In this document: piece by piece, positions 39 through 16,888 of the stretch
Layout: the number at the start of each line of letters is the position of its first letter
How positions within the stretch are numbered: the first letter of the stretch is position 1
From: Clostridiales bacterium
Lineage (GTDB): Bacteria; Bacillota; Clostridia; Tissierellales; Sedimentibacteraceae
Assembly (NCBI GenBank): GCA_003487955.1
Contig: DNNJ01000382.1
Coordinates: 1 to 16,888, forward strand
DNA length: 16,888 bases
Direction of reading: 5' to 3'
Program-made: the position numbers and the translations under genes
The notes under the pieces: model-generated
Databases searched by the model: none
What the model saw: the letters and a program-made list of their open reading frames with translations, nothing else
Told to the model about the DNA's origin: nothing

Positions 39-40
39 GG

Positions 41-1820: not shown

Positions 1821-1870
1821 TTTAACTAAATGTTTTATAGATTACAATTAGGGCTACATTCATTTACAAT

Positions 1871-1970: not shown

Positions 1971-1999
1971 CCTATACATAACTTTTTGTCATTGAGTTC

Positions 2000-2383: not shown

Positions 2384-2410
2384 TTCACCCTCCAAATTTT
2401 TTGCTTATCT

Positions 2411-2434: not shown

Positions 2435-2437
2435 CTA

Positions 2438-2466
2438 ATTTTAGCATTTTAAAGAAGGCTTGTCAA
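2438..2466 (-). promoter_or_regulatory. Sigma-A-type promoter for kal
   Basis: On the minus strand a consensus TTGACA (2461-2466) is separated by exactly 17 bases from TAAAAT (2438-2443), about 55 bases upstream of the kal ATG. The -35 box directly abuts the T-run of the terminator that closes the Tad operon, so kal is probably transcribed independently of the pilus genes. Confidence 0.78.
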
Positions 2467-2501
2467 ATAAAAACCGGGATGGTTTATGCTTTAACCATCC
2501 C
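2466..2501 (-). terminator. Intrinsic terminator closing the Tad copy A operon
   Basis: On the minus strand GGGATGGTT and AACCATCCC (2493-2501 and 2476-2484) form a perfect 9-bp GC-containing stem with an 8-nt loop, followed by GGTTTTTATTT. It lies about 50 bases beyond the stop of the TadG-like gene and marks the end of the Tad transcript. Confidence 0.85.
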
Positions 2502-2552
2502 AAGTTCTTACTCTTATTATTCAATTAGTTTTTAAATGATATACAACTTTAA

Positions 2553-3956
2553 CTATTCCACTAATCTTACTGAACCGCCAGGTTTTTCGCCGGAAGGTGT
2601 CTCAAATGAATTTGTCGCACTATTATAAGGATATCTATTTATAAATTTAAGACTAATAATATCTGCACCTGTTCCATCCCAATTATTCATAACCTCACAT
2701 TCCAATAGCTCAATATGTTCCATTGGAATATTATAACCATTATTAGTCTGCAGTATATCCTTGTAATTTTCAATTTGAGATTCAATTATACTGTATACAT
2801 ATACAGTATTTCCCTCAACTGCGATTTTTTTCAGCGGATCCTGTATTTTGCTTAAATCTTTACCCATTTTATAAATAATAAAACCATCATCAACCTTCAC
2901 TTTAATACTATCGTCGTTGATTATTAAGTCTTTATTGCTAATTCTCTCCTTAATACCGGGACCAGTTTTATTCCAAGCTTCAAAAAGATCACCTTTTGCA
3001 TAGCTTTCTACACTATCTAAATTAATAAATGGCAGCGCATCACCAGCCCAAGCAGCGTTTTCTGCTACCGCTGTCACTGTCATAATAGAATCAGTGAAAC
3101 CAAGAAGCCTTGCAAAAGTATAGTTAACCTTCTCAGTATTTGTAACTCTAACTCTATTTGAATTGCCGTGTCTCTCCCCGACAAAAGTCTTATCATTACG
3201 AAGCTCAAGCATACGAGATTCTATTATATATTGAATGGCTGCGGTCTTATAATCTGCTGGAATTTCTTGATTATTATACCTATCGTTAATTTCATTCTTG
3301 TAGTCATCAGTGTTAAGCATTAAATTAATAATGGATAATTTATCGCTATCATTCTTTATTACCGGTGGATTACTGCCGGATGTATATGGTTTAATAGTAA
3401 TATTTAGATCCTCAGCGTAAGTCACTATTAATGAATTTGGTATTTGCATTAATTCTTCCCTTATTTCTTCTTTTATCTCTTCCTTTGTTTTTAAAGCAAC
3501 TGTTCCCGATATAAACATATCTCCCGTATCATCTAAATAACTACTGATATCAACATAATTGTCTTTAGCATAATCTATAATAACCGAATCGCTTTTTCCC
3601 TCTATGGCGTTTTTTATTTCCGATTCCAACTCTATCAGTTCATCTTCACTGTACACATTTTCATAAGCACCTTCAGTACCGCCAACAATAGTATGCGTAT
3701 CTACTTCAATAGTTGTACCCGCGATTGTACTATCTACTCCGTTAAGCCTCGCATATTGTGTTGCTGTACTTTCAGCATTAGCATAATCCAACGCCCCTGC
3801 CAATGCAGCTGCATCTGCTGCATTTTGCAATTTACTTCGTTGAACTGTCATGGCTCCGACATCAACAGCCAAGGCTGCAAAGCCCATCAGTACAACAAGA
3901 AACAAGGCAACAAAAACCATGGCTTGACCTGATTCATTTCTTATATATTTAAACAT
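2553..3956 (-). CDS. TadG-like Flp pilus accessory protein
   Basis: Predicted membrane-anchored protein of the Tad/Flp system. The N-terminus reads NESGQAMVFVALFLVVLMGF, then AVDVGAM and QRSKLQNAADAAALAGA, the pattern of the putative Flp pilus-assembly TadE/G-like (Tad) family: one N-terminal membrane segment (about residues 10-32) and a long exported C-terminal part. The cleavage-like site G10/Q11 lacks the Glu at +5 that Flp and TadE carry (Phe instead), as is common for TadG, so processing is doubtful. I see no von Willebrand A metal-binding motif in the rest, which I do not recognise. The ATG at 3956 was chosen because AAAGGAGG lies 9 bases upstream; a TTG three codons earlier touches the ribosome binding site. 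It is the last gene of the copy A operon. Copy B has no equivalent after its coiled-coil gene. Confidence 0.8.
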   Translation of the reverse strand: MFKYIRNESGQAMVFVALFLVVLMGFAALAVDVGAMTVQRSKLQNAADAAALAGALDYANAESTATQYARLNGVDSTIAGTTIEVDTHTIVGGTEGAYENVYSEDELIELESEIKNAIEGKSDSVIIDYAKDNYVDISSYLDDTGDMFISGTVALKTKEEIKEEIREELMQIPNSLIVTYAEDLNITIKPYTSGSNPPVIKNDSDKLSIINLMLNTDDYKNEINDRYNNQEIPADYKTAAIQYIIESRMLELRNDKTFVGERHGNSNRVRVTNTEKVNYTFARLLGFTDSIMTVTAVAENAAWAGDALPFINLDSVESYAKGDLFEAWNKTGPGIKERISNKDLIINDDSIKVKVDDGFIIYKMGKDLSKIQDPLKKIAVEGNTVYVYSIIESQIENYKDILQTNNGYNIPMEHIELLECEVMNNWDGTGADIISLKFINRYPYNSATNSFETPSGEKPGGSVRLVE

Positions 3957-3996
3957 CTTACCCAACCTCCTTTACACATATCAGCACCCCTTATCC

Positions 3997-4025
3997 ATTA
4001 TATACCATAATTTAGAATAAATAAA
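3997..4025 (-). promoter_or_regulatory. Weak candidate promoter before the TadG-like gene
   Basis: TATAAT (3997-4002, minus strand) is preceded after 17 bases by TTTATT, which matches only half of the -35 consensus. It lies in the roughly 100-base gap between the coiled-coil and TadG-like genes. No terminator is visible in that gap, so the gene may also be read through from the operon. Confidence 0.33.
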
Positions 4026-4057
4026 CAATCTGTTTTAAAATATTTTATCATATTTTA

Positions 4058-5134
4058 TCATTCCGTTTCAGCAATTTCTTGGGTTTCTTCTATTTCTTCT
4101 TTTTCAGCAGCAAATTCTTTTTGTATATCCATATATTCCAATGTTTTTTGCTTCTTAGCTAATTGTAATTCCATTGATGTAAGTCTGGATTCCGCAGTTC
4201 TTAGATTGTTTTGAACAGCTATTTTCTCTACAGCTATGTTGGCTTTTTCATTAATTAAATTTATGGATTTCTTATATTCTTCTTCTAATTGAGCTTTAAG
4301 CAAATCGTTGGCAACCAACAGCTTGTCATTTTGCATATTTGAACTTTGCAATGACTGTATCATGGATGACAGCCTATGTTTAAGTCCTCCTATTTCATCA
4401 TTTAGAATATCAATGGTTTTCTCTTTAGTCTTATTATCGGCGTTAAGTTTTTCTATAACCTCAGTCTGAGCATTCAACTGCTCATGCAGCTCATTTACCT
4501 TGGAATTCAAGTCAGCAAATTTTCCCTCTGTCATTATGCTTTTCAAATATTTAACTTCCATTTTTTCTTCTTCTAATTGTCTCGAAAAGTCTGCAACCAT
4601 ATCCCGTTGTTTTTTTGTTTCTTGCCTTTCGATTTTAAGCATTTCTTTTTGTGCTGCAGTTTCATCCTTTGAGCGTTGAAGATTGGCAGTCAATTCTTCA
4701 ATGGTATTTGAAAGCTGTTGTATCTTTTTTCCCAAAGACAGTTTTTCACCCTGCAAAACCTTCGCTTCCTCTTCTAATGAAACAATGTTGGATTTCAGAT
4801 TTAATACATCCTTTGCTGAATACTGTGATTCATCCAATTTAATGCTTTTTAATGATTCCGATAAATTATCATATTCAGCAGACAGCTTATTGTTTCTTGC
4901 AATAAGAGATTCATTGCTTTTTCTTAAGCTTTCTTTTTCCTCAAACAAGGTCTGAAGGTTTTTTTGAAATGTCTCCTTTGTAGACTGCTGTTGTTTTCTA
5001 ATCCTTAATAAATATTCCTGAACCGATTTCTTGGTATAACCCCCAAAGGAATTTTTTAATATTTGACTCAAATCAGCTTCTTCTGATTTATCTCGAATCA
5101 TTTCGACAATGTTTTTTTCTTCATTATTACTCAT
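4058..5134 (-). CDS. DivIVA-like coiled-coil protein of the Tad operon (copy A)
   Basis: A 358-aa soluble protein with no signal peptide or membrane segment. Residues about 22-45 contain FGGYTKKSVQEYLLRI, which resembles the N-terminal membrane-curvature-binding motif of DivIVA/GpsB (GY....V..FL). From about residue 45 to 330 it is almost continuous heptad-like coiled coil rich in Glu, Lys, Leu and Gln, ending in an acidic tail. DivIVA proteins gather at curved membrane such as poles and division sites and recruit partners; I infer a role in placing or scaffolding the pilus machine. It follows the DUF192 gene by 16 bases, with GGGAGG 7 bases before the ATG, and has a clear paralogue at 13885-14937, best conserved in the first 70 residues. 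It is not a classical Tad component, and a general cell-division role cannot be excluded. Confidence 0.72.
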   Translation of the reverse strand: MSNNEEKNIVEMIRDKSEEADLSQILKNSFGGYTKKSVQEYLLRIRKQQQSTKETFQKNLQTLFEEKESLRKSNESLIARNNKLSAEYDNLSESLKSIKLDESQYSAKDVLNLKSNIVSLEEEAKVLQGEKLSLGKKIQQLSNTIEELTANLQRSKDETAAQKEMLKIERQETKKQRDMVADFSRQLEEEKMEVKYLKSIMTEGKFADLNSKVNELHEQLNAQTEVIEKLNADNKTKEKTIDILNDEIGGLKHRLSSMIQSLQSSNMQNDKLLVANDLLKAQLEEEYKKSINLINEKANIAVEKIAVQNNLRTAESRLTSMELQLAKKQKTLEYMDIQKEFAAEKEEIEETQEIAETE

Positions 5135-5150
5135 TCATTAACCTCCCATA

Positions 5151-5477
5151 TCAAATAAATTTTATAATATCACCAATTCTTATCTTTTGTGAAGCATTTT
5201 CAGGAATCTCCAAAATATGCTTGGTTTTCTTTACAATCTTTCCTATTCTCCAAGGTTTTATAGTTTCCTTATAAAGCACTTCCATATCCGTTGATAAATA
5301 AACAGCATCAATAGTAATTTTCATAAAAAAGCAATGAATGGATGAACAATTGATTAACAGCAATCCTTCCTCATCTGATAAATATTTTCTATTCATTAAG
5401 CCTACAAGTCGTGATATAAAATTATCAGCTTTTGTAATATTATTAAAAATAACCTTATTATTACATAAAACTTTCAT
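5151..5477 (-). CDS. DUF192 family protein (copy A)
   Basis: A 108-aa protein of the DUF192 family (PF02643), recognised from RLVGLMNR near residue 23, EGLLL, FFMKITIDAVYLS and the closing HILEIPENA...IRIGDII. The family's function is not established. Many members carry a signal peptide, but this one does not and is probably cytoplasmic. Both copies share NCSxIHCFFMK, with two cysteines and a histidine that could hold a metal or form a disulfide (inference). Its ATG overlaps the tadC stop in TAATG, so translation is probably coupled to tadC. The paralogue at 14921-15271 has the same overlap and is identical at about 65 of 106 aligned positions by hand count. Confidence 0.78.
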   Translation of the reverse strand: MKVLCNNKVIFNNITKADNFISRLVGLMNRKYLSDEEGLLLINCSSIHCFFMKITIDAVYLSTDMEVLYKETIKPWRIGKIVKKTKHILEIPENASQKIRIGDIIKFI

Positions 5478-6403
5478 TATTTAAAAGCCTCCATAATTGA
5501 TACCACAGCAGGACCCATAAGCATTATAAAAATAACCGGGAAAATAAAGATAACCATCGGCAATAAAATTTTAATTGCCATTTTGTGTGCCTTTTCTTCA
5601 ATTTTTGACCTTCTGCCATCCCGTATGGAAGCAGCTTGAGTATGAAGAACATTTTTAAGAGAAATACCTAATTTGTTAGCCTGAACCACAGAACCGGTAA
5701 ATGACCTTAAATCATCTATATCGCATCTTTCGCTAAGACCCATCAGTGCATCACGCCTGCTTCGTCCCATGGACATTTCCCTGTATGCAATAGTAAATTC
5801 ATCGATTAAAGGTCCTTTAAAGTGTTCTATTATATGAAGCATTGCCTGCTCAAAGCCAAGACCTGCTTCCACATTGACGCTTAGCATATCCAAGACATCA
5901 GGCATTTGACTTTCCATATTTTCTCTTCTTTTTCTTATTTTACTGAATAAGCTAAAACGTAATATTGCAAAAGCGGCATATGCACCAAAAAACGGCAGAA
6001 AAACTTTAATTTTAATATCTAATTTTAATATAATTGCAAGTATAAAGAACAACACGGCAGTTCCAATAATAACAATTAACTTGATTGCAGCATATTCACT
6101 GGGCATTATGGTCATACCGGCTTGGCGAAGAAGTTTCCTTTGATTTTCAGCTTTTTCATGATTAGTGCTTGTCTGGGGCACAACCTTACTTAAGAATTTA
6201 ACAAAAGATTCCGTCATAGGATTGATGAAACGCTCTGCCAATGATTTGTTTAACTCTTCGTCAACAATCATTTCCTCGCCGGTAGTTTCCAATGCTGCAA
6301 GACGGCCTTTTATTCTGTCACTTTCAATTCCATCATTATAAAATAACATATAAACTAATGAAAATATTAGTACAGCAAAAACTAATGCAATATAAACAGC
6401 CAT
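5477..6403 (-). CDS. tadC: TadC, inner-membrane platform protein (copy A)
   Basis: Integral membrane protein of the type II secretion system F family that, with TadB, forms the platform on which TadA assembles Flp pili. The 308 aa hold an N-terminal membrane segment, a central pair of hydrophobic stretches (about residues 105-150), the cytoplasmic T2SSF domain (MPDVLDMLSVNVEAGLGFEQA, REMSMGRSRRDAL, QANKLGISLKNVL) and a strong C-terminal membrane segment. The ATG at 6403 follows a GAGG ribosome binding site by 5 bases; a GTG two codons earlier lies within that site. The gene begins 7 bases after the tadB stop and ends overlapping DUF192. The C-terminal 141 residues match the copy at 15271-16203 at about 121 positions by hand count. 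Confidence 0.9.
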   Translation of the reverse strand: MAVYIALVFAVLIFSLVYMLFYNDGIESDRIKGRLAALETTGEEMIVDEELNKSLAERFINPMTESFVKFLSKVVPQTSTNHEKAENQRKLLRQAGMTIMPSEYAAIKLIVIIGTAVLFFILAIILKLDIKIKVFLPFFGAYAAFAILRFSLFSKIRKRRENMESQMPDVLDMLSVNVEAGLGFEQAMLHIIEHFKGPLIDEFTIAYREMSMGRSRRDALMGLSERCDIDDLRSFTGSVVQANKLGISLKNVLHTQAASIRDGRRSKIEEKAHKMAIKILLPMVIFIFPVIFIMLMGPAVVSIMEAFK

Positions 6404-6410
6404 AAACACC

Positions 6411-7355
6411 TCACATCTTTATGTTAATGATTTTCCTGATAAACGAAAATCCTATAATTTCCAACACAATAGAAACAGTCAACAAAATTTTTCCCATTTG
6501 AGTTTCAAAAAAACCCTCGAAATAACTTGGAGTCATAACCATAATTGTAAGTACCAAGAATACCGGCAGCAACCCTATTACCATACCCGACATACGTCCT
6601 TGCGCAGTTAAAGTTTTAATATCATTTTTGATTCTAATTCTATCCCTTATAGTTCCGGATATCGTGTCTAAAATTTCCGATAAATTACTTCCTACCTGGG
6701 CAGATGTCATAACAGCTGAAACCAATAGCTCCAAATCCTTGCTTTTGGTTCTTTCTACCATATGATTAAGAGCATCCTCCTGCCTTACCCCATAATGAAT
6801 TTCTCTTAATACTTTAGCAAATTCTGTTGATATAGGCGGATGCATCTCCTCAGCTACACTTTCCATAGACTGTAAAAAGGTAAAACCTCCTTTAATACTG
6901 TTGCCCATTAATATAGTAGCCTGCCCTAACTGAGTGTTAAATAGGTCTTCGCGTTTTTTCCCGGCATTATTTACCAGAAAGGGCGGCACTGCAATACCTA
7001 TAGTCGAAAGTGCTATACCTGTAACTATATTTCCCCCCGAAGCAATTAACAAAAGCATTGGTATAAGCGTAAGCCCTGCCCATAGATAAATAAATTCATT
7101 GGCCTTAAGTTTAATACCTGATGAAGCAATATAGTTGGAAAATTCCTTGCTTGCTATCTTAAATCTATCTTTTTTTCTTCTGCTTTCTTCTTCGCTTTTC
7201 TCCTTTATAAATTGTTCCTGTACGTCATCTATATCATTTGATTTAAAATATCTTACTATTCTGTCCCTTGAACGTCTGGTGTTAGAGCCTGACAGTAAAA
7301 TGTATAAAATTAGATATATTAATGTAGCAACAATTAAGGATATTATAATTTCCAT
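6411..7355 (-). CDS. tadB: TadB, inner-membrane platform protein (copy A)
   Basis: Second T2SSF-family platform protein of the Tad secretion system, 314 aa. It has an N-terminal membrane segment (about 3-21), a charged linker with a run of Glu, Arg and Lys (about 46-66), two further hydrophobic stretches (about 88-127), the T2SSF domain (GNSIKGGFTFLQSMESVAEE, LREIHYGVRQEDALNHM, SAQVGSNLSEILDTIS) and two C-terminal membrane segments. The start ATG has GAGG 6 bases upstream and lies 8 bases after the tadA stop, consistent with coupled translation of the ATPase and platform. The paralogue at 16211-16888 is closely similar along its whole visible length. Confidence 0.9.
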   Translation of the reverse strand: MEIIISLIVATLIYLILYILLSGSNTRRSRDRIVRYFKSNDIDDVQEQFIKEKSEEESRRKKDRFKIASKEFSNYIASSGIKLKANEFIYLWAGLTLIPMLLLIASGGNIVTGIALSTIGIAVPPFLVNNAGKKREDLFNTQLGQATILMGNSIKGGFTFLQSMESVAEEMHPPISTEFAKVLREIHYGVRQEDALNHMVERTKSKDLELLVSAVMTSAQVGSNLSEILDTISGTIRDRIRIKNDIKTLTAQGRMSGMVIGLLPVFLVLTIMVMTPSYFEGFFETQMGKILLTVSIVLEIIGFSFIRKIINIKM

Positions 7356-7363
7356 AATTCACC

Positions 7364-8713
7364 TCAATTTGTAAACCAATCATCTCTGATAAAAACACCG
7401 CTGGCCGCTATTTTCTCAAGGAAGTTTGGTCTGATACCTGTTGAAACGAAATTTCCTTTAATCCTTCCGTATGTGTCAATACCTTCAATTCTGTATGTGA
7501 AAATATCCTGAAGGGTGATAGTGTCTCCCTCCATACCTACAACCTCGGTAATGTTTACTACTTTACGGGAGCCGTCTTTAAGTCTTGACTGATGAACAAC
7601 TATATCAAGAGCTGAATGTATTTGTTCTCTTATAGCACGAACAGGCAGCTCCATTCCCGACATTAGAACCATTGTTTCCATACGAGACATTAATTCCCTT
7701 GGCGAGTTGGCGTGTGCAGTCGTTAATGAACCGTCATGACCCGTATTCATTGCCTGAAGCATATCTAAAGTTTCACCGGAACGAACCTCACCTACAATTA
7801 TTCTGTCAGGACGCATACGAAGCGAGTTTCTTACTAAATCCCTTATGGTAATTTGTCCTGAACCTTCCAAGTTTGGTGGTCTGCTTTCCATTGTAACCAC
7901 ATGCTCCTGCATAAGCTGAAGTTCTGCAGCATCTTCTATTGTTACAATACGTTCATTGTTGGGAATATAGCCGGATAACACATTGAGCAGTGTAGTTTTC
8001 CCGCTTCCTGTCCCTCCGGAAACTATTATATTCATTTTACCTTTAACACAGGCCTCTAAAAACGACACCATTTTAGGAGAAATAGAGCCAAATTTTATTA
8101 AATCTGTAGCAGTAAACGGTGTTTTGGAAAACTTACGAATTGTCATAGAAGGACCAACTAATGAAACAGGCGGTATAACCGCATTAAAACGAGACCCGTC
8201 AGAAAGCCTTGCATCCACCATGGGACTTGATTCATCTATTCGCCTTCCAACAGAAGATACTATTCGATTTATTATATTCATAACATGAGCATTGTCTTTA
8301 AATACAACATCTGACAAATCCAACTTGCCTTTTCGCTCAACGTAAACTCTATAAGGACCATTTACCATAATTTCCGTAATTTCAGAATCATTTAGTAAAG
8401 ATTCAATCGGTCCTAAGCCCATTACATCATTATATACTTCTTTTAAAAGACGACTTCTCTCGGTTCTCGATAAATTTGAAGCTTTAGCTTCAATTATTGA
8501 TTCCATAACCTCTTTTAATTCTTCCTGCTGCTCGCCTTTCAAATTAAATAAACTTATATCCTGCTGGTTTACTGTTTCTATAAATTCCTTATGAATACGT
8601 TCCTTTAGCTCGGATTTCTCATCATAAACACTCTTGCCTGCCAAAGGTGTGTCAACTGCAACATCATCTGTAACTGTATTTTTTTGTTTTTCGAGTCTGT
8701 CTAATAAGCTCAT
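7364..8713 (-). CDS. tadA: TadA/CpaF-type pilus assembly ATPase
   Basis: Cytoplasmic VirB11/CpaF-family ATPase that drives Flp pilus assembly, 449 aa. The N-terminal domain (about 30-220) includes GLGPIESLLNDSEITEIMVNGP, here abbreviated to its start GLGPIESLL at about 99-107, typical of CpaF. The core shows Walker A GGTGSGKTT (about 233-241), an Asp box TIEDAAEL (about 258-265), Walker B RIIVGEVR (about 304-311) and the His box TAHANSP (about 332-338). It lacks the tetracysteine zinc site seen in the PilB-type protein of this window, as expected for TadA. It follows tadZ by 18 bases with an AAGGG ribosome binding site. The corresponding ATPase of copy B, if present, would lie beyond the right edge. 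Confidence 0.95.
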   Translation of the reverse strand: MSLLDRLEKQKNTVTDDVAVDTPLAGKSVYDEKSELKERIHKEFIETVNQQDISLFNLKGEQQEELKEVMESIIEAKASNLSRTERSRLLKEVYNDVMGLGPIESLLNDSEITEIMVNGPYRVYVERKGKLDLSDVVFKDNAHVMNIINRIVSSVGRRIDESSPMVDARLSDGSRFNAVIPPVSLVGPSMTIRKFSKTPFTATDLIKFGSISPKMVSFLEACVKGKMNIIVSGGTGSGKTTLLNVLSGYIPNNERIVTIEDAAELQLMQEHVVTMESRPPNLEGSGQITIRDLVRNSLRMRPDRIIVGEVRSGETLDMLQAMNTGHDGSLTTAHANSPRELMSRMETMVLMSGMELPVRAIREQIHSALDIVVHQSRLKDGSRKVVNITEVVGMEGDTITLQDIFTYRIEGIDTYGRIKGNFVSTGIRPNFLEKIAASGVFIRDDWFTN

Positions 8714-8731
8714 GTAACTTCACCCTTTATA

Positions 8732-9934
8732 TTATTTTTTCTTAAATAAACTTATTTTTCTATTTACTTTTTTTTCTTTTTCTAAAACGGTTTTATTAGT
8801 TCCACCACTTATTAAAATATCTACTAATCCTGATATTGATTGGCTTATTTTACTGCCCGGTGCACCTACTACAAAAGGTACACCCCTGTTTAAAGCATTT
8901 ACTGCCACCTTGTAATCACTTGGAAGTTTAGCCCAAATGGGATATCCTATTATTTTTTGCACATCATTTATTGTTATGGAATGCATATCTACTGCTCTAT
9001 TAACAATAACTCTTATTTTTTCAGTCTGCTGCAAGGATTCTAATATGGAAACGCTGAGCTTTGAATTTCTTAGAATTGAAATGTCAAGCCCCGTAACAAA
9101 AAATATTATAGACGATGATTCAATAGCAGTCATAGTAACTTCAGAAAATGATGGTGCAGTATCGACTATGACATAATCATAATATGTGCGAAGCAAGCTA
9201 AGTAAGCTCTGAATTTTCTCAGCTGAAACAAGTTCAGCATATTCAGGACTTTTAGGTGCACAAAGTACATGGACGCCACTGGAATGAACCGCCATATAGC
9301 TTCTTACAGAGTCTATATTAGGAGTAATAACATCCTGCACTAATTCAGTTATTGTATCCTTTGGCTCTATATCAAGGAAAATATGTAAATCACCAAACTG
9401 TAAATCCAAATCAATCAGGGCAACCTTCTTATGTTTCTCCGCTAATTTTACGGCTAAATTGGCTGAGATAGTGCTTTTACCGAGACCCCCCTTGGCACCA
9501 AAAACCGTAATTACGGTAGAAGACCACAAAAGGGATTCCTTTTGACTTAAAGATTTAATTCGTATAGATTCATTATGATAAACAGATTTTATATATTCTG
9601 CAAATTCCTTTGGAGATTTCGGGAATTCGGTAATATTATGGCATCCTGCATTTACTGCACTTTGCATAGTTTCCACATCTAAATTTTCAGCTGCCAATAT
9701 AACAAAAGTACGAGGCCTATGTAAAATAATTCTTTCTGCTAAATTTAAAACATCAGTATCGCCTGCTCCAAGTGTCATAATTATAATATCAGGAGATGTA
9801 TTTTCTATTTTATCAAGTGCCGCTGAGCCGCCGGGACTGTCACCTAATACAAATATATCCTCATCGTCAATCATGGATTTAAGAGCACCTATGTTTCTTT
9901 CCATTTTACTTATCAGCAAAACATTAATTCTCAT
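8732..9934 (-). CDS. tadZ: TadZ/CpaE, receiver-like plus MinD/ParA-type ATPase
   Basis: Localisation ATPase of the Tad system, 400 aa. Residues about 3-120 fold like a response-regulator receiver, but the expected phosphoacceptor position after the third strand is Thr (IIIMT, about 50-54), so phosphorylation is unlikely, as in known TadZ and CpaE proteins. Residues about 140-370 form the ATPase, with a deviant Walker A GAKGGLGKST (about 146-155, signature Lys 148), LIDLDLQFGD (about 173-182) and VIVDTAPS. The C-terminus is a Lys-rich tail. TadZ homologues mark the pole where the pilus machine is built. The gene follows cpaB by 11 bases with a strong GGGGGG ribosome binding site. Its presence with a DivIVA-like protein in the same operon suggests two layers of positioning. 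Confidence 0.92.
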   Translation of the reverse strand: MRINVLLISKMERNIGALKSMIDDEDIFVLGDSPGGSAALDKIENTSPDIIIMTLGAGDTDVLNLAERIILHRPRTFVILAAENLDVETMQSAVNAGCHNITEFPKSPKEFAEYIKSVYHNESIRIKSLSQKESLLWSSTVITVFGAKGGLGKSTISANLAVKLAEKHKKVALIDLDLQFGDLHIFLDIEPKDTITELVQDVITPNIDSVRSYMAVHSSGVHVLCAPKSPEYAELVSAEKIQSLLSLLRTYYDYVIVDTAPSFSEVTMTAIESSSIIFFVTGLDISILRNSKLSVSILESLQQTEKIRVIVNRAVDMHSITINDVQKIIGYPIWAKLPSDYKVAVNALNRGVPFVVGAPGSKISQSISGLVDILISGGTNKTVLEKEKKVNRKISLFKKK

Positions 9935-9945
9935 TTAAATCCCCC

Positions 9946-10701
9946 CTATTTAACAACCACATCATCAAATATTATGCTTTTTGTTTCCGGTAAACCGGTC
10001 ATTTCTTTATCCAAAGGCGACCTTAAAATCATTCTTAAGTTTCCCTTTACTTCCGACATACTTATATCCATAGCTTCTCTCGGAGTTACCTGTAATGTAA
10101 TGGTAGTATAAGAAACACCGGTTTCAGGATTTTTAGGCTTGCCATCTTGACTTAATACATCATCAACAGCAAGGATGGTAATATTTTCAGCAATCATTGC
10201 CGTGAAATCTTCCATTTCTTTTTCTTCTCCTTCAGCTGCGTCTTCCTTTTCTTCCTGATACTGAAGAAGTATGTCCACAGTGTTTTTAGGTCTAAGCATA
10301 CCGACCAAACCCGATAAATTTCCTACATCAACTGATATAGCGCGCATACCGGGTGCAATTTCATATGCTAATGTCCCATCTCCACCGCCCCCGTCAGGTG
10401 AAATAAGCTTTGTAGACAGCACTTGCTCGCCGGCAGTTATTTCATACTTTGAAAATTTACCAACTGCAGCATTTATATTTGTCATTGCCTCTTTATGAAC
10501 TGCTTCAACCGGCAGCTCTTTTAATTCAACCATATCAGCAGTAATAGTTGTATTTGGGGGAATATTTTCAGATGCTGTCAATACTCCTGTCTTAATAACC
10601 TCTACAACTGCAGCTCTTTCATTTAACATGTTTAGATAATTATACAAAAGGACAGCAGCAATAACTGCTGTCACCAGCGCTAATACTTTGACTTTTTTCA
10701 T
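9946..10701 (-). CDS. cpaB: CpaB/RcpC pilus assembly protein with SAF domain
   Basis: Envelope protein of the Flp pilus system, 251 aa. An N-terminal membrane anchor (about residues 5-21) is followed by an SAF domain (about 37-100: LTASENIPPNTTITADMV through GEQVLSTKLI) and the RcpC/CpaB domain (IAPGMRAISVDV, GMLRPKNTVDILLQY). A strongly acidic insert rich in Glu lies at about 150-166. In Gram-negative bacteria CpaB works with the secretin; in this probably single-membrane organism, with no secretin gene in view, it more likely interacts with the cell wall (inference). A GGAGG site lies 6 bases before the ATG. Confidence 0.88.
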   Translation of the reverse strand: MKKVKVLALVTAVIAAVLLYNYLNMLNERAAVVEVIKTGVLTASENIPPNTTITADMVELKELPVEAVHKEAMTNINAAVGKFSKYEITAGEQVLSTKLISPDGGGGDGTLAYEIAPGMRAISVDVGNLSGLVGMLRPKNTVDILLQYQEEKEDAAEGEEKEMEDFTAMIAENITILAVDDVLSQDGKPKNPETGVSYTTITLQVTPREAMDISMSEVKGNLRMILRSPLDKEMTGLPETKSIIFDDVVVK

Positions 10702-10725
10702 TAGTTTCCTCCGAAATATAAATAC

Positions 10726-11208
10726 TTACTGTTCTACCCTCATAGTTGTTTGAGCTTTAATTACATACATCCCATCTTCATTATCTTTAAATACTTCTGT
10801 AAATGCTCTTAAAATTGGTGTTAATATTTTTACTTTTCCTGTAAATTTAACATCAATTTTTAGACCGCCAGCATCAGCTATCGGCACTATTGGTTCAATT
10901 ATTTCCTCTATATCATCAATATCTAATTCAATTAGAGTATTATCTTTCATAATATCAAATGCTGCTCTTTCTGCTGAACCAGCAGCATATGAATCCTTAT
11001 CATCCATATCATCAGAATAATAATGTATTGCTATAAAACGGGCTGCCTCCCTGCTTGCATTGTTTGTAGCTAACTGGTTATGAAAAATCCATCCAAAGTC
11101 AATTATCCCCCCTATTAATAACAACAGTATGGGGAGCACCAATGCAAACTCAACCATTGCCTGACCTGATTCTTTTTTCATTATTTTTATTATATGCTTA
11201 AGTTTCAA
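10726..11208 (-). CDS. tadE: TadE-like pseudopilin
   Basis: Minor pseudopilin of the Flp system, about 160 aa. It has a basic leader, then ESG/QAMVEFALVLPILLLLIGG: a prepilin-peptidase-like site after Gly with Glu at +5 and Phe at +6, followed by the membrane helix and the TadE motif NNASREAARF. The start is uncertain. I chose TTG at 11208, which has a purine-rich GGGAGG about 8 bases upstream. An in-frame ATG at 11319 would add 37 residues; it overlaps the Flp stop in TAATG, but it has no ribosome binding site and would run through a terminator-like hairpin (11232-11267). The ATG of MKKESGQ is also possible but lacks a well-spaced site. It is followed by cpaB. Confidence 0.83.
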   Translation of the reverse strand: MKLKHIIKIMKKESGQAMVEFALVLPILLLLIGGIIDFGWIFHNQLATNNASREAARFIAIHYYSDDMDDKDSYAAGSAERAAFDIMKDNTLIELDIDDIEEIIEPIVPIADAGGLKIDVKFTGKVKILTPILRAFTEVFKDNEDGMYVIKAQTTMRVEQ

Positions 11209-11231
11209 ATCTCTCCCCTCCCCCTTAGAGT

Positions 11232-11267
11232 AAAAACACCGAACCCGACCATTCGGACGAGCCGGTG
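11232..11267 (-). terminator. Strong hairpin with T-run between flp and tadE
   Basis: On the minus strand CACCGG...CGGTG brackets a long stem with only one bulge and one U-U mismatch by hand folding, closed by a GAAT loop and followed by TTTTT. It stands out as GC-rich in an AT-rich setting. It lies about 50 bases after the Flp pilin stop and before the ribosome binding site of tadE. The likely role is a partial terminator giving more pilin transcript than downstream assembly transcript. Confidence 0.7.
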
Positions 11268-11318
11268 CTTTAGTGGTTTTGTATTTTAGTACGGTACTTT
11301 CTGAATTATTAGTTTCCA

Positions 11319-11489
11319 TTAAGGAGTTTCTAAATCGGATGCTACATCATCCATAATTGCGGCTGTCTTTTCACCTAATGTTCGTAGAGCTACAATAACA
11401 ACTACCGCAATTAACGCAAGTATCAGCCCATACTCTACCATACCTTGACCACTTTCTTCATTTTTCAGCCAGTTCATTAATTTTTTCAT
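11319..11489 (-). CDS. flp: Flp-type pilin
   Basis: Major structural pilin of the Tad system, 56 aa. The leader MKKLMNWLKNEESG ends at Gly14 and is followed by QGMVEYGLILALIAVVVIV: Glu at +5 and Tyr at +6 of the mature protein are the hallmark of Flp pilins cleaved by a TadV/CpaA-type peptidase. The mature chain would be about 42 residues, one hydrophobic helix plus a short tail ending in an acidic stretch. A strong AGGGGG site lies 5 bases before the ATG. It is the first gene of the copy A operon, preceded by a candidate promoter and followed by a strong hairpin-terminator. Confidence 0.92.
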   Translation of the reverse strand: MKKLMNWLKNEESGQGMVEYGLILALIAVVVIVALRTLGEKTAAIMDDVASDLETP

Positions 11490-11515
11490 TTTGACCCCCT
11501 AGTTATATTTTTTTT

Positions 11516-11543
11516 ATTTTATATTCATTATTATTCCAATCAA
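11516..11543 (-). promoter_or_regulatory. Candidate promoter for the Flp pilin operon
   Basis: TTGATT (11538-11543) and TAAAAT (11516-11521) on the minus strand are separated by 16 bases and would give a leader of about 20 nt before the pilin ATG. The region is very AT-rich, so other -10 choices such as TATAAA next to it are possible. Confidence 0.42.
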
Positions 11544-11568
11544 GAAATATCTGCATTAAGAGCGTTAC

Positions 11569-11624
11569 GTATATGTACAACATTTTTCTTAAATTAGAAC
11601 AATAAAAATATCATGTATATGTAC
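11569..11624. repeat. Pair of 10-bp direct repeats upstream of the pilin promoter
   Basis: GTATATGTAC occurs at 11569-11578 and again at 11615-11624, both in the same orientation and 46 bases apart, in the short spacer between the prepilin peptidase stop and the pilin promoter. Each unit is nearly self-complementary. Their position, roughly 30 and 75 bases upstream of the candidate -35 box, would suit binding sites for an activator. This is inferred from placement only. Confidence 0.45.
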
Positions 11625-11625
11625 C

Positions 11626-12297
11626 CTATATAAAACCTACATTTAACACTATTGTCAACAAAGCTAATATATAACCTGCTGACAAGAACGGTGCCAAAGG
11701 TAACATCGTTGAAAGGTAAATTTTCTTTAATGCCAACCCTACTAAAATATAAGTAAGTAATACAATTGCCATTATTCCTACGGCTGTTATAATAAGCGGA
11801 TATCCAAGTGCTAACGCTATTGCACCGGCTAATTTTACATCTCCTGCCCCTACTTTTCCAAATCCCATAAATCCTGCGACTGCGGTAAAAATTATCATTA
11901 CTGCCACCATACTGATAATCGCACCAAGAATATTGTTTAATTCAAAGTCAATCATGGTTTGAAATGTTATACCCAAAATTATGAGAGTTAAAACAAGTTC
12001 ATTAGGAATTATTCTGATATTTATATCAATTACCGCAATTATCAAGCCTAAAGTAATCTGAATACCTATCAATAAAGCTGCAATTATATTATCTATATAC
12101 AATCCTGTAGCTGCCCACGCTGCAAGGTTAAATAAGCAAATTAATAATTTTAATATGCTGGAAAGCTCTTTGCTTTCATTTGTTTCAAAAGCTTTCTTTC
12201 TTTTTTTATATTCAATTATTCGATTTGATATATCCGGTATTTTATATCCTGTCACCAGCCCTATAATGCTAAATAAAATTGTTATTATTATATTCAT
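11626..12297 (-). CDS. tadV: Prepilin peptidase, A24 family (TadV/CpaA type)
   Basis: Integral-membrane aspartic peptidase that removes the leader from Flp pilin and TadE, 223 aa. The two catalytic aspartates are visible in AVIDINIRIIPNEL (Asp about 91) and in the GxGD motif KVGAGDVKLAG (Asp about 153). About six to seven hydrophobic segments are present. The N-terminal cysteine-rich methylase domain of PilD is absent, as in TadV and CpaA. Its ATG directly follows the TAA stop of the upstream Wzy-like gene (TAAATG), so the two are translationally coupled. It ends 136 bases before the pilin start. It is the only prepilin peptidase in the window and might also serve the type IV pilus genes beyond the left edge. 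Confidence 0.9.
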   Translation of the reverse strand: MNIIITILFSIIGLVTGYKIPDISNRIIEYKKRKKAFETNESKELSSILKLLICLFNLAAWAATGLYIDNIIAALLIGIQITLGLIIAVIDINIRIIPNELVLTLIILGITFQTMIDFELNNILGAIISMVAVMIIFTAVAGFMGFGKVGAGDVKLAGAIALALGYPLIITAVGIMAIVLLTYILVGLALKKIYLSTMLPLAPFLSAGYILALLTIVLNVGFI

Positions 12298-13596
12298 TTA
12301 TGCTCCCATTTCTTCATTTGATGCAAAGTCAGTTGATAATAACCCTAAAAATATCCAAAATACATATGCAGTTACTGGCATGCTTATATTGAAAAAGGCT
12401 TGTATTAAATAACCTGCAACACTTGCATAAAGCCCTATAAAATATGTGTTTATCTTTAAATTCATCAACCCTTTTTTCAATACAAGTATAATGAAATATA
12501 AGTATATCATGAGCGAAGGAATCCCGGATGTAACTGCTATATTTAAATATTCATTATGAGCTTTATCCGTATATGATGATTCTGCTCCATATTTTTCTTC
12601 TACCTCATCCCTATATCTTTCAGTATATGGTTCCAATAGGTTTTCAATGCCAAATCCAAATATTGGTTCCTCCCCAATCATTTGAACTACTCGTTTCCAG
12701 ATAAACCCTCTGCGGGCTCCCGCATCATCAGATTGCTCTACCAGGAAATCTTTAGCATCATCTGAAATAGTTAAAAATCTCCTTATTAATTTCCCGTCTG
12801 TCTGATAATTGAAAAACGCCATAATTAAAAGTGTTACAAGGAAAATAATAAAATATCTGTAAATTTGTGACTTTTTAATATTATATGTTAATTTATGTAT
12901 GATGATAAAACATAATATTGAAAACATTCCACCTAACCAGGCACTTCTTGTGCTTGTGCATAATAAGCAATAAAACGAAACTGCATATCCAAATAATCCT
13001 GCTATTTTACTGTTAAAAATATAAAGATAAGTTGATATGGGTATTATCAGAACCAAGTATGTACCAAGAAAATTCGGATTCTGCATTGTTGAAGATGGTC
13101 TTGAACCAAATCCCTTAATTACTTCATCGTGAAACGGATAATATCCGTAAAACTGCATTATTCCATATAAAGAAACAAGTATGCCTGCTATCAAAGTATA
13201 TGTAAAAATCTTATTGCTTTTTATTCTGCATGTTCTTCCTATAATAAATAAATATAGGTATAGAAATATAGTTATAATTCCTTCCATCCTGCCGGGCTGA
13301 CCTATGATTGACCTTTGGATGTTTTCACTGAAAAAAGTTGATATAATTAGTATTAAAAAGTAGCTCATCAGCCATGCATTTATTCTGTCTCTGTCAAAGA
13401 CTGTTTTTATTGTTTTAATGTACTTAATCATAATTACAGAGTATGCGGCAAGCAAGCTGAAAATAGCTCCTAATCTGATAAATAAAAAGTCAAATTTTTC
13501 TAATTTTAAAAACAGCAGCGGTACAATTGAAAGTGTTAGTGTGATGGTAACTATAGTAATGTTATTAAATTTTTCTTTTGCAGCACTATTATACAT
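12298..13596 (-). CDS. O-antigen ligase/polymerase (Wzy) family membrane protein
   Basis: Polytopic membrane protein of about 432 aa with roughly ten to twelve hydrophobic segments. Motifs are those of the Wzy_C/O-antigen ligase family: PNFLGTYL, CTSTRSAWLGG, a large extracytoplasmic loop (about residues 255-345 of the protein) with GARRGFIWKRV and EPIFGFGIEN, and DKAHNEYLNIAVTSGIPSL. Members transfer or polymerise lipid-linked glycans, including onto pilins (PglL/PilO type). The tight coupling to the prepilin peptidase suggests pilin or surface glycan modification, but the substrate cannot be read from sequence. The ATG at 13596 was preferred because AAGGGTAAAGGG precedes it; a TTG seven codons upstream has no ribosome binding site. 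Confidence 0.82.
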   Translation of the reverse strand: MYNSAAKEKFNNITIVTITLTLSIVPLLFLKLEKFDFLFIRLGAIFSLLAAYSVIMIKYIKTIKTVFDRDRINAWLMSYFLILIISTFFSENIQRSIIGQPGRMEGIITIFLYLYLFIIGRTCRIKSNKIFTYTLIAGILVSLYGIMQFYGYYPFHDEVIKGFGSRPSSTMQNPNFLGTYLVLIIPISTYLYIFNSKIAGLFGYAVSFYCLLCTSTRSAWLGGMFSILCFIIIHKLTYNIKKSQIYRYFIIFLVTLLIMAFFNYQTDGKLIRRFLTISDDAKDFLVEQSDDAGARRGFIWKRVVQMIGEEPIFGFGIENLLEPYTERYRDEVEEKYGAESSYTDKAHNEYLNIAVTSGIPSLMIYLYFIILVLKKGLMNLKINTYFIGLYASVAGYLIQAFFNISMPVTAYVFWIFLGLLSTDFASNEEMGA

Positions 13597-13740
13597 ATGC
13601 CCTTTACCCTTAGCCAATAATTATGAAACATAACATAACTGATTATAAAACATATTAATTACATTATTATTATTTAATGATTTAATATTAATTTCATTTT
13701 AATTACATTTCAATTACACAGTATGCTAATAAAGATATTG

Positions 13741-13769
13741 TTGCTATTATATTCCATCTTTGTTATAAT
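13741..13769 (+). promoter_or_regulatory. Candidate plus-strand promoter inside repeat copy 2
   Basis: TTGCTA (13741-13746) and TATAAT (13764-13769) are separated by exactly 17 bases on the plus strand, pointing towards the 3' end of the coiled-coil gene. The corresponding positions in repeat copy 1 read TTGTAT and TAGGAC with the same spacing, so the -10 box is not conserved. No plus-strand gene follows, so any transcript would be antisense or spurious. Confidence 0.28.
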
Positions 13770-13787
13770 TTCTATCGATTTATTACA

Positions 13788-13817
13788 ACAAAAAATGACG
13801 ATTTTTTAATCGTCATT
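13788..13817 (-). terminator. Intrinsic terminator closing Tad copy B
   Basis: On the minus strand AATGACGATT pairs with AATCGTCATT (13808-13817 and 13794-13803), a perfect 10-bp stem with a 4-nt loop, followed by six T residues. It lies about 70 bases after the coiled-coil gene stop. The stem sequence is the same as that of the kal terminator. Confidence 0.82.
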
Positions 13818-13884
13818 CATACATTTAAGGACATTCCTCTGCCTGCGAAGACTATCTCATAAATTGAGGTGTGTCTCTATACCT

Positions 13885-14937
13885 TTAATCTTCTATTTGC
13901 TCGTTGTCTGAAACTCCTGTCTCCATTCTATTCATTTCTTCTTTTACTTCAATTGAGCTGTTTGTTTTAAGAAGCTGTACTTCCAATGAAGCAATTTTTG
14001 CTTCTGCGACACTTAAATTTTTCTGCGCAATTAATCTGTCTATTGTAATACCGGATTTCTCATTAATGAATGCAATTGTCTTTTTATATTCCTCCTGTAA
14101 TTGAAAATCTAAAGCTTCATTTGCAATTAATAATTTATCGTTTTGAACATTATACTCCTGTAATGTTTTCATTAAATTGTTTGTTTTTTCTTTAAGCAGA
14201 GAAACTTCATCATTAAGTGAATCAATAGATTTATCTTTTAAAGTAATTTCTTCATTTAATTTACTGTTAACTTCTGTTTGTGCCGACAGCTGAGTGCTTA
14301 ATTGACCTATCTTTAAATTTAATTCTGCAAATTTTCCATCAGAAATTGTTCCTTTTAAATATTTTACTTCATTTTTTTCTTCTTCTAATTTATTCGATAT
14401 GTCTGCCACAACATCACGTTGTTTTTTTAGTTCAAGTCTTTCAGACTTAAGCATTTCTTTCTGTGCCTCATATTCTTGAACTGAAATTGCAAGCTTGGTT
14501 TTAAGCTCGTCTATTTCATTGTTTAATTGCTCTGTTTTTCTCTCCAAGGAATAGTTTTCGCGGTTTGTTATCTTTATTTGCTCTTCCAAGGATACATTTT
14601 TGTTTTTTAGTTCTAAAACATTTTGAGCTGAATACTCAGAATCATCGAGCACTATATTCTTTAATGAACCGGCTAAATTGTCATATTCCGAGGTTAATTT
14701 ATTTAGACGTGCTTGTAGTGTTTCATTGTTTATTCTTAACTCTTCCTTTTCATCAAATAAATCTTGAAGGTTTTTTGAAAAAGTTTCCTTTGTTGTTTGC
14801 TGCTGTTTGTGGATTAATGATAAATATTCCTGCACAGATTGCTTCGTATAGCCCCCAAAGGTTGTTTTTAAAACACCGTCTAAATCCACTTCATCTTTAT
14901 CACGCAATATGCCAACTATATTATTGTCCCTTTCCAT
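13885..14937 (-). CDS. DivIVA-like coiled-coil protein of the Tad operon (copy B)
   Basis: Paralogue of the protein at 4058-5134, about 350 aa. The N-terminus repeats the DivIVA-like motif FGGYTKQSVQEYLSLI (about residues 26-41 of the chosen start), then KQQQTTKETFSKNLQ and a long coiled coil with no membrane segment. The first 70 residues are the best conserved between copies and the C-terminal end is the most diverged. The ATG at 14937 has GGAGG 9 bases upstream; a GTG three codons earlier touches that site. It overlaps the end of the DUF192 gene by 17 bases and is the last gene before a terminator, with no TadG-like gene after it. I infer it works with its own TadB/TadC platform. Confidence 0.72.
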   Translation of the reverse strand: MERDNNIVGILRDKDEVDLDGVLKTTFGGYTKQSVQEYLSLIHKQQQTTKETFSKNLQDLFDEKEELRINNETLQARLNKLTSEYDNLAGSLKNIVLDDSEYSAQNVLELKNKNVSLEEQIKITNRENYSLERKTEQLNNEIDELKTKLAISVQEYEAQKEMLKSERLELKKQRDVVADISNKLEEEKNEVKYLKGTISDGKFAELNLKIGQLSTQLSAQTEVNSKLNEEITLKDKSIDSLNDEVSLLKEKTNNLMKTLQEYNVQNDKLLIANEALDFQLQEEYKKTIAFINEKSGITIDRLIAQKNLSVAEAKIASLEVQLLKTNSSIEVKEEMNRMETGVSDNEQIED

Positions 14938-15271
14938 TTTTCTCACCCTCCAAAATTATATTATCTCCAATTCCAATACCTGTTGTCATGCCCTCAGGAA
15001 GCTCTAAAACATGGGTGCAGTTTTTAACGAGCTTCCCGATTCTCCATGGCTTGACAGTTTCTTTATACAGCACTTTCATATCTTTAGATAAGTAAACTGC
15101 TTCAATGGTGAATTTCATAAAAAAGCAATGTATCAATGAGCAGTTTTTTAAAAGCAACCCTTCATTTTCATTTAAGCTTTTCTTATTTAATAATCCAACC
15201 AGCCTTATTTTTAAACTTTCAGCTATTGTAATGTTATCTAATAGCAAATTATTATTAACATATAATTTCAT
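14921..15271 (-). CDS. DUF192 family protein (copy B)
   Basis: Paralogue of the DUF192 gene at 5151-5477, 116 aa, with a slightly longer C-terminus. It keeps RLVGLLNKK, EGLLLKNCSLIHCFFMKFTIEAVYLS, the shared KPWRIGK stretch and HVLELPEG...GIGIGD. There is no signal peptide. Its ATG overlaps the tadC stop in TAATG exactly as in copy A, and its own 3' end overlaps the coiled-coil gene. The strict retention of order and overlap in both copies argues that it acts with TadC or the coiled-coil protein. Confidence 0.78.
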   Translation of the reverse strand: MKLYVNNNLLLDNITIAESLKIRLVGLLNKKSLNENEGLLLKNCSLIHCFFMKFTIEAVYLSKDMKVLYKETVKPWRIGKLVKNCTHVLELPEGMTTGIGIGDNIILEGEKNGKGQ

Positions 15272-16203
15272 TACACCCCACCAAACATTTCCAATATGGA
15301 CACTACAGCAGGTCCCATTAATACTATAAAAATTACCGGGAAGATAAACATAACCATAGGTAAAAGAATTTTAATTGACATTTTATGTGCTTTTTCTTCT
15401 ATTTTGCTGCGCCTGTTTTCCCTGATGGAGGCTGCCTGTGAATGCAGAACATTTTTAAGAGATATACCTAATTTGTTGGCTTGAATTATGGAGCCGGTAA
15501 AGGATTTTAAGTCATCAATATCACAGCGTTCGCCTAATAATATCAGCGCGTCTCTTCTGCTTCTGCCCATGGACATTTCTCTGTAGGTAATATTAAATTC
15601 ATCAATCAATGGCCCCTCAAAATGCTCGATAATATGCAGCAATGCTTGTTCAAACCCTAATCCTGCCTCTACATTAACACTTATCATATCTAAAACATCC
15701 GGCAGTTGTCTCTCCATTTCATCTTTCCTTTTGGTTATACGGAACATTAAGTTAAACCGCATTACGGTAAAAGCCATATATGCCCCAAATAACGGCAATA
15801 AAAATAAATATAAGTAGCTTGCGTTTAATACTAAACCAAGTATTAAATATAACAGTGCATTTCCGCATATAACAATTATTTTAATGGCAGAGTATTCTTT
15901 TGGCTTTATAGTATATCCTGCCTGTCTAAGCGATTTTCTTAAATTTTCTGATTTTTGATTATTGAGACCTGTATCAGGCAGGATTTTACCAAGGGACTTA
16001 ACCAGCGAGTCCATAATAGGGCTGATAAATCTTTCTGACAATGATTTATTCAGCTCTTCATCCACAATTATGTCACTCTCAATATCAATTAATTTAGAAA
16101 TTCTGTTATTAACCTTGTCATGGTTCAAACCGTAGTTATTTAATGTAATAATTATCACACCGAATATGAATATTGCAAAAAAACCTGAAATATAAAGAGT
16201 CAT
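15271..16203 (-). CDS. tadC: TadC, inner-membrane platform protein (copy B)
   Basis: Paralogue of the TadC at 5477-6403, 310 aa, with the same layout: N-terminal membrane segment, a cytoplasmic stretch with VDEELNKSLSERFISP, two central hydrophobic segments, the T2SSF domain (LPDVLDMISVNVEAGLGFEQA start, REMSMGRSRRDAL, QANKLGISLKNVL) and a C-terminal membrane segment. The N-terminal third is less conserved than the T2SSF part. The ATG at 16203 is preceded by GAGG; a GTG two codons earlier lies in that site. It starts 7 bases after the tadB stop, as in copy A. Confidence 0.9.
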   Translation of the reverse strand: MTLYISGFFAIFIFGVIIITLNNYGLNHDKVNNRISKLIDIESDIIVDEELNKSLSERFISPIMDSLVKSLGKILPDTGLNNQKSENLRKSLRQAGYTIKPKEYSAIKIIVICGNALLYLILGLVLNASYLYLFLLPLFGAYMAFTVMRFNLMFRITKRKDEMERQLPDVLDMISVNVEAGLGFEQALLHIIEHFEGPLIDEFNITYREMSMGRSRRDALILLGERCDIDDLKSFTGSIIQANKLGISLKNVLHSQAASIRENRRSKIEEKAHKMSIKILLPMVMFIFPVIFIVLMGPAVVSILEMFGGV

Positions 16204-16210
16204 ATGCACC

Positions 16211-16888
16211 TCACACTTTAATATTTACTATTTTATTTATAACTGCAAACCCTGTAATTTCCAAAACTATAGATGTAACGATTAATATTTTGCCAATGGT
16301 AGAATCAAAAAAACCTTCAAAATAACTTGGAGTCATAACCATTATTGCTAAAATCAAAGCTATTGGCAACAAGCCTATAACTAATCCGGACATTCGTCCT
16401 TGGGCTGTCAATGTTTTGATTTCATTCTTAATTCTTATGCGATCTCTGATTGTATTTGAAATGGTATCAAGTATTTCCGATAAATTGCTTCCAACTTGTG
16501 CTGATGTCATAACAGCGGATACCAAAAGCTCCAAATCTTTATTTTTCGTCCTTTCCACCATGTGATTAAGTGCATCTTCCTGCTTGACGCCATAATGTAT
16601 TTCTCTTAGAACCTTTGAAAATTCAGTAGATATTGGAGGCTGCATTTCCTCTGCAATATTTTCCATGGACTGCAAAAATGTGAAACCTCCTTTAATGCTG
16701 TTTCCCATTATTACAGTGGCATCACCTAATTGCTTATTAAACAATTCCTCACGCTTTTTTCTTGCATTGCTGACTATAAACGGCGGTATGGAAATGCCTA
16801 TAATAGATAGGGCTGCTCCTGTAATTACATTCCCGTTAAAAAGAAAAACCACCATCATGGGAATTAAAGTTAAGCCTGCCCAAAAATA
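16211..16888 (-). CDS. tadB: TadB, inner-membrane platform protein (copy B, 5' end outside window)
   Basis: The C-terminal 225 residues of a TadB paralogue. The frame is open to the window edge and begins YFWAGLTLIPM, which corresponds to about residue 90 of the copy A TadB, so some 90 residues are missing off the edge. It contains GNSIKGGFTFLQSMENIAEE, LREIHYGVKQEDALNHM, SAQVGSNLSEILDTIS and two C-terminal membrane segments. An internal ATG at 16858 could be mistaken for a start, but homology to copy A continues upstream of it. The genes before it are probably further copy B Tad genes. Confidence 0.88.
   Translation of the reverse strand, partial: YFWAGLTLIPMMVVFLFNGNVITGAALSIIGISIPPFIVSNARKKREELFNKQLGDATVIMGNSIKGGFTFLQSMENIAEEMQPPISTEFSKVLREIHYGVKQEDALNHMVERTKNKDLELLVSAVMTSAQVGSNLSEILDTISNTIRDRIRIKNEIKTLTAQGRMSGLVIGLLPIALILAIMVMTPSYFEGFFDSTIGKILIVTSIVLEITGFAVINKIVNIKV

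Follow-up and report, generated by a model that had tools for sequence, protein, structure and literature searches.

Do the two genes that follow tadC in a clostridial Tad pilus operon, one for a DUF192 protein and one for a coiled-coil protein, belong to the pilus machine? The question is raised by a 16,888-base stretch of DNA (the window), bases 1-16888 of the 32,274-base contig DNNJ01000382.1 of a Clostridiales genome (GCA_003487955.1; 427 contigs, 79.66% complete), in which the gene order tadB-tadC-DUF192-coiled coil occurs twice, both times on the minus strand, as the initial annotation had reported. The host is most likely a Sedimentibacter or close to that genus. The annotation took the four genes for a module duplicated on its own; instead they form the 3′ portion of each of two Tad operons arranged in tandem. 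One Tad (type IVc) pilus operon (copy A) lies within the window, and immediately upstream of it the window includes the 3′ end of another (copy B). Inspection of the sequence right of the window recovered the tadA, tadZ, and flp genes sought for copy B together with its other remaining genes (cpaB, tadG, tadE, a second flp gene, tadV, and wzy; contig 17393-24899). Copy B therefore extends into a whole Tad operon, and two such operons stand in tandem, each with TadA, TadB, TadC, TadZ, CpaB, Flp, TadE, and TadV in one locus. Tad genes of copy A were called with Pfam; in copy B, tadB, tadC, and tadG were called with Pfam and RcpC scored 86.3 bits, while the other genes were assigned solely from their resemblance to copy A. 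In both copies tadC and DUF192 overlap at TAATG, and the 7-bp gap reported between tadB and tadC holds if tadC starts at its ATG, shrinking to 1 bp if the upstream GTG is used. These data support the presence of two pilus systems that each carry a DUF192 gene and a coiled-coil gene of their own.

In a sample of 398 genomes of the phylum (presumably Bacillota), 175 of which have DUF192 and 201 cpaB/RcpC, DUF192 usually comes immediately after tadC. Among the matches listed, 101 of 150 DUF192 places had RcpC/cpaB on the same strand within 20 kb (median, 5.05 kb), and 48 of 149 RcpC places had no same-strand DUF192 within 20 kb, contig ends included; the RcpC row of the window's own genome was left out of this linkage list. 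Twenty of the 101 linked places and 20 of the 49 unlinked ones were picked down the lists, not randomly. DUF192 lay within −20 to +127 bp of tadC at 19 of the 20 linked loci and 3.1 kb away at the other. Nine of the unlinked places also had a tadC match in the stretch (directly before DUF192 in five, about 1.1 kb apart in three, and in another order in one). The only gene tested from the ~1.1-kb spacers (L178, 3880-4989; L and G numbers are our handles for loci and genomes) encodes a ricin-type lectin-domain protein.

Within the host's order, DUF192 was found in 17 of 249 genomes. It directly follows tadC in 13 of them (gaps of −20 to +8 bp) and is separated from tadC by one gene in three; the intervening gene encodes a VWA-domain protein in the two cases tested, L033 (7336-9273) and L034 (9457-11463). 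The remaining genome carries DUF192 in one frame with a tadC-like stretch, apparently an N-terminal remnant of tadC (L038, 9325-9996), in which Pfam detected no T2SSF domain.

A rule that every cpaB-bearing locus carries DUF192 was rejected: 22 of the 38 RcpC genomes of the order lack it (36 of the 38 are over the RcpC cut-off). Twenty RcpC stretches of the order without DUF192, from 18 genomes, three of which have DUF192 elsewhere, were compared by tadA. Nineteen had a distant tadA type (E value no better than 5e-47), and the other (L094) was a closer tad locus (E = 3e-90). The distant stretches (L077-L093, L095, and L096) may correspond to the distant tad-like group described in PMC3244431.

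The coiled-coil family is narrower in spread. A protein search retrieved 118 relatives among 7994 candidates scored, and the named genome collection yielded 16 loci (four of which, L103-L106, were taken from their equal lengths as the same contigs as L042, L036, L039, and L037), 15 of them reading tadC-DUF192-coiled coil; the 16th starts 300 bases from the edge of its contig. In 10 of these 15, DUF192 and tadC abut or overlap. The hosts include Sedimentibacter, Sinanaerobacter, Anaerovorax, Anaerotignum, Desulfosporosinus, Peptococcaceae, Oscillospiraceae, Lachnospiraceae, and other bins. The family stands directly after DUF192 in several families of Clostridia, and the pair adjoins tadC in many genomes besides this one. 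The initial annotation had asked whether DUF192 and the coiled coil always follow tadC; DUF192 is the usual neighbor of tadC in the phylum sample, whereas only 8 of the order's 17 DUF192 genomes showed the coiled coil. In three of these eight (L040, L043, and L044) the full-length matches were weak (E = 5e-07 to 6e-12) and the N-terminal ones clear (E = 4e-08 to 2e-10). Among 25 genomes of the host's genus, six have the coiled coil and six have DUF192; the exceptions to joint occurrence are G182, with only a coiled-coil fragment, and G183, with only DUF192.

Both DUF192 copies pass the curated PF02643 cut-off. An AlphaFold2 model of the copy A protein (mean predicted local distance difference test score [pLDDT], 93.1) matched the structures 3pjy and 3m7a, which places it in the DUF192 fold. 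Residues G26, H48, F51, M52, P75, and E90 are invariant among 23 Tad-linked members. Hydropathy gave no transmembrane stretch in either DUF192 copy or either coiled coil. 3pjy is named a hypothetical signal peptide protein, while the two Tad versions here have no hydrophobic segment. Pfam's name for the family is "Uncharacterized ACR."

We infer a function for the pair from this arrangement and these predictions. On a tentative reading, which we put at roughly 45%, the two proteins may serve the clostridial Tad machine as accessory subunits in the cytoplasm, with DUF192 seated on the TadC platform and the coiled coil as a scaffold or positioning factor. DUF192 would be small, soluble, and cytoplasmic, would be produced along with TadC, since their stop and start codons overlap, and would bind the cytoplasmic face of the TadB/TadC platform. 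The coiled coil would form a scaffold in the cytoplasm: its DivIVA/GpsB-like N-terminus would dock to the membrane or a platform partner, and its rod of ~300 residues would gather or position the machine next to TadZ. With a DUF192/coiled-coil pair suited to its platform kept in each operon, the two pili would be assembled separately. Several observations weigh against this proposal. Of the 20 unlinked DUF192 places, 11 had no tadC in the stretch, and DUF192 persists in L038 although tadC is reduced there to a remnant. Nine of the 17 DUF192 genomes of the order, including the same-genus L041, showed no coiled coil (L030, one of the nine, is cut by a contig end), and neither did any of the 20 linked phylum loci; the coiled coil is therefore not essential to Tad pili in general.

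It is unlikely that the two genes are operon passengers, cotranscribed with the Tad genes and acting elsewhere, DUF192 as a binding domain in some general process and the coiled coil being an unrelated rod of cytoskeletal or regulatory function. Three observations count against this: cpaB was upstream of DUF192 in all 101 linked places among the matches listed and downstream in none, the spacing between DUF192 and tadC was short or overlapping in the 19 of 20 loci described above, and both genes occur in 5 of the 7 same-genus genomes that have either. The fixed place after tadC makes DUF192 a testable Tad component.

The initial annotation also called the coiled coil DivIVA-like. Across 25 sequences its N-terminal block has invariant residues L26, K27, G31, G32, Y33, T34, S37, V38, and Y41, and an AlphaFold2 model of this region predicts a short helix, a GGYTK loop, and a long helix (mean pLDDT, 79.5; predicted template modeling score, 0.45). 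This predicted short helix, GY-containing loop, and long helix may correspond to the N-terminal domain with the F-x-G-Y motif of the DivIVA/GpsB family (PF05103), GGYTK being aligned to RGYD/N, whereas the Tad protein falls below the Pfam cut-off, has a much longer rod, and is encoded in a pilus operon. The DivIVA loop touches the membrane, and GpsB is an adaptor of cell wall enzymes. By hhalign, the coiled-coil N-terminus aligned with 18 clostridial DivIVA N-termini at 74% probability over 25 columns, compared with 0.9 to 3.1% for four controls. All 18 DivIVA N-termini outscored all 200 shuffles with the N-terminal profile, and GpsB accounted for two of the five PDB matches of that profile at E values up to 10 (0.17 and 0.31).

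Other results count against DivIVA kinship. The 18-sequence profile leans to the motif, as 12 of the 30 DivIVA loci had no frame that passed the motif filter and were left out; none of the 18 DivIVA scores reaches the HMMER inclusion threshold, and the shuffles were made from other proteins. The top PDB match of the N-terminal profile was an unrelated transcription factor (E = 0.039). No PF05103 row appeared for either coiled coil at E values up to 10, and the copy A protein scored 9.3 bits on PF05103, below the cut-off of 28 and hence outside the family. A Foldseek search with the N-terminal model yielded nothing beyond three matches at E values near 10.

The PF05103, PDB, and Foldseek results favor an alternative in which the coiled coil is a scaffold rod without DivIVA/GpsB kinship and its GGYTK motif arose by convergence, which is quite possible although the odds are against it. 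Both proteins were under every Pfam cut-off. The same alternative is favored by two further database comparisons: the full-length profile matched generic coiled coils in the PDB, and the best NCBIfam rows were SMC rods, far from membership (TIGR02168, 31.4 and 24 bits against a cut-off of 567). It does not readily account for a DivIVA likeness that is confined to the conserved N-terminus and absent from three rod control segments, or for GpsB matches that cover the corresponding N-terminal stretch. Kinship with DivIVA/GpsB is accordingly a lead and not a result, and the label DivIVA-like holds weakly for about 25 N-terminal residues and not for membership in PF05103. Separately, a 490-amino-acid coiled-coil gene upstream of operon B (CC2_B; contig 24958-26430, L028) has the best PF05103 score found in this genome (positions 9 to 66, E = 0.004, below the cut-off); the coiled-coil N-terminal profile did not match it.

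A wider and rather doubtful extension would make the coiled coil a DivIVA/GpsB-type landmark or adaptor dedicated to the pilus machine and DUF192, an uncharacterized family of bacteria and archaea, a Tad platform subunit across the phylum, the two together forming an unrecognized cytoplasmic subcomplex of monoderm Tad pili, here in two matched versions. If it is true, a DivIVA/GpsB-like protein in a pilus operon would suggest how Gram-positive cells place the Tad machine.

The pair had been considered undescribed. It was in fact described in December 2025: in the section of PMC12786226 concerned, the Bulleidia tad operon ends on its 3′ side with DUF192 and a coiled coil. The two genes consistently adjoin Tad genes, are also reported from two Erysipelotrichales bins and three genomes of Helcococcus ovis, and are given possible roles in the Tad system, while DUF192 is assigned no function. 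The Bulleidia operon resembles those studied here in that DUF192 is penultimate and a coiled coil last at the 3′ end, the host is Gram-positive, and the fold neighbors of DUF192 are 3pjy and 3m7a. It differs in being a single operon and in that HHpred likened its coiled coil to SMC, with no DivIVA/GpsB likeness reported in that section, which is also silent on the spread of the DUF192-tadC order. Clostridial tad operons in PMC3244431 share the core genes and the occurrence of several operons per genome (four in Desulfotomaculum reducens), whereas the text available of that paper contains neither COG1430, "coiled," nor DUF192. In the Caulobacter Tad machine, homologues of TadA, TadB/C, TadZ, and CpaB likewise form the inner-membrane part, whereas the cytoplasmic rings are CpaF and CpaE and the available text does not contain DUF192 (PMC13170226). 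A literature search returned no match for DUF192 with tadC, nor for "tad pilus" with DivIVA or UPF0127. The DUF192/coiled-coil pair in a tad operon and the presence of several tad operons per genome are already known. Added here are how widely DUF192 follows tadC, a description of the coiled-coil family and of its N-terminus, possibly DivIVA/GpsB-like, and the occurrence of two operons in tandem.

The two copies are paralogous and diverged, as first proposed. Global alignments gave identities of 177/225 (79%) for tadB, 201/310 (65%) for tadC, 65/108 (60%) for DUF192, and 188/349 (54%) for the coiled coil. Across the operons, tadA (370/444), tadZ (328/400), and tadB are the most alike and tadG (84/304), the second flp gene (20/55), and wzy (197/434) the least. 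Third codon positions are just 43 to 49% identical, and, on this and the separate tree groupings of the copies, a recent duplication within the genome was rejected.

The surroundings of the tandem bear on its origin. Operon B sits downstream of dnaK and dnaJ. The genomes taken as Sedimentibacter saalensis (G165) and UBA6113 (G171) have one Tad operon between dnaK-dnaJ and a lyase gene with pilB; in the one taken as S. acidaminivorans (G163), no dnaK or dnaJ was seen within 19.5 kb beyond tadV, so the site differs there. The lyase gene in the window (2000-2395, after tadG) has a thioesterase fold and corresponds to 3-aminobutyryl-CoA ammonia lyase of lysine fermentation (NCBIfam, 198.7 bits; cut-off, 160); it also lies 3′ of Tad genes in L036, L039, L041, and L042. 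Copy B is closest to the operon of the genome taken as UBA8386 (G173; tadZ, 93%; tadB, 92%; tadC, 91%; coiled coil, 87%; DUF192, 74%), which is followed by tadG, the lyase gene, and pilB and whose contig begins inside the operon, so that its upstream side is unseen. The lyase gene and pilB of the window's genome are 95% and 86% identical to those of UBA8386 and 87% and 60% identical to those of S. saalensis. In a tree of tadZ, tadB, and tadC, copy B grouped with UBA8386 (support, 1.000) and copy A with S. saalensis (0.970). The latter grouping had support of 0.43 to 0.44 in single tadZ and tadC trees and was lost in the DUF192-plus-coiled-coil tree, where copy A falls outside both pairs. Copy B looks like the resident operon, because UBA8386 is nearest to it and to the lyase gene and pilB too, and copy A looks like an addition, by old duplication or transfer.

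It is improbable that the tandem is an assembly chimera, in which a copy-B strain and a copy-A strain with one operon each at the same site were joined in a metagenome bin. Such an error would fit the fragmented, incomplete genome, the single operon at the site in two relatives, and the different closest relatives of the copies (UBA8386 for copy B, at 74 to 93% in five proteins; S. saalensis for copy A in the three-gene tree). It is opposed by the junction at 13618-13884, which past the end of the coiled-coil gene has only short matches (≤23 bases) to six alternative flanks and has its own terminator-like site, and by the similar G+C contents of the operons (0.342 and 0.346).

Features of the window are listed in Table 1. 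Operon B runs Wzy_C protein, tadV, two flp genes, tadE, tadG, cpaB, tadZ, tadA, tadB, tadC, DUF192, and coiled coil; in copy A there is a single flp gene, and tadG is placed 3′ of the coiled coil.

Table 1. Features of the two Tad operons in the window (positions are those of the window)
Feature	Position	Strand	Support
tadG-like pilus protein, 3′ of copy A coiled coil	2553..3965	-	PF13400, 49.9 bits
Copy A coiled-coil gene, 358 aa, N-terminal FGGYTK motif, after DUF192	4058..5134	-	
Copy A DUF192, 108 aa, start overlaps tadC stop	5151..5477	-	Pfam PF02643, 51.7 bits (cut-off, 27)
Copy A tadC, platform	5477..6409	-	T2SSF, 64.5 bits
Copy A tadB, platform	6411..7355	-	T2SSF, 68.1 bits
Copy A tadA, motor ATPase	7364..8713	-	T2SSE, 219.7 bits
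Copy A tadZ, ParA/MinD-type ATPase	8732..9934	-	AAA_31, 65.2 bits
Copy A cpaB/rcpC	9946..10701	-	RcpC, 73.8 bits
Copy A tadE	10726..11319	-	TadE, 65.9 bits
Copy A flp pilin	11319..11489	-	Flp_Fap, 37.6 bits
Copy A tadV prepilin peptidase	11626..12297	-	Peptidase_A24, 45 bits
Wzy_C/O-antigen-ligase-like membrane protein, head of operon A	12298..13617	-	PF04932, 77.9 bits
Intrinsic-terminator-like stem-loop, 3′ of copy B coiled coil, between operons B and A	13793..13818	-	Consensus match only
Copy B coiled-coil gene, 353 aa	13885..14946	-	
Copy B DUF192, 116 aa	14921..15271	-	Pfam PF02643, 49.2 bits
Copy B tadC	15271..16209	-	T2SSF, 66.9 bits
Copy B tadB, 3′ part, 5′ end outside window	16211..16888	-	T2SSF, 67.7 bits

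The tadZ of copy A also has a receiver-domain match slightly under the Pfam cut-off (27.8 versus 30.2 bits). In the 601 bases from 13400 to 14000, consensus matching alone found one terminator-like site (0.1 expected in shuffles) and nine promoter-like sites (3.9 expected; standard deviation, 1.9). No Rfam family was found in the window. Each Tad operon is headed by a Wzy_C/O-antigen-ligase-like gene (Table 1 for operon A; contig 23544-24899 for operon B). As a guess, these head genes could encode pilin O-glycosyltransferases; L037, L041, and L190 also have genes of this kind close to tad genes.

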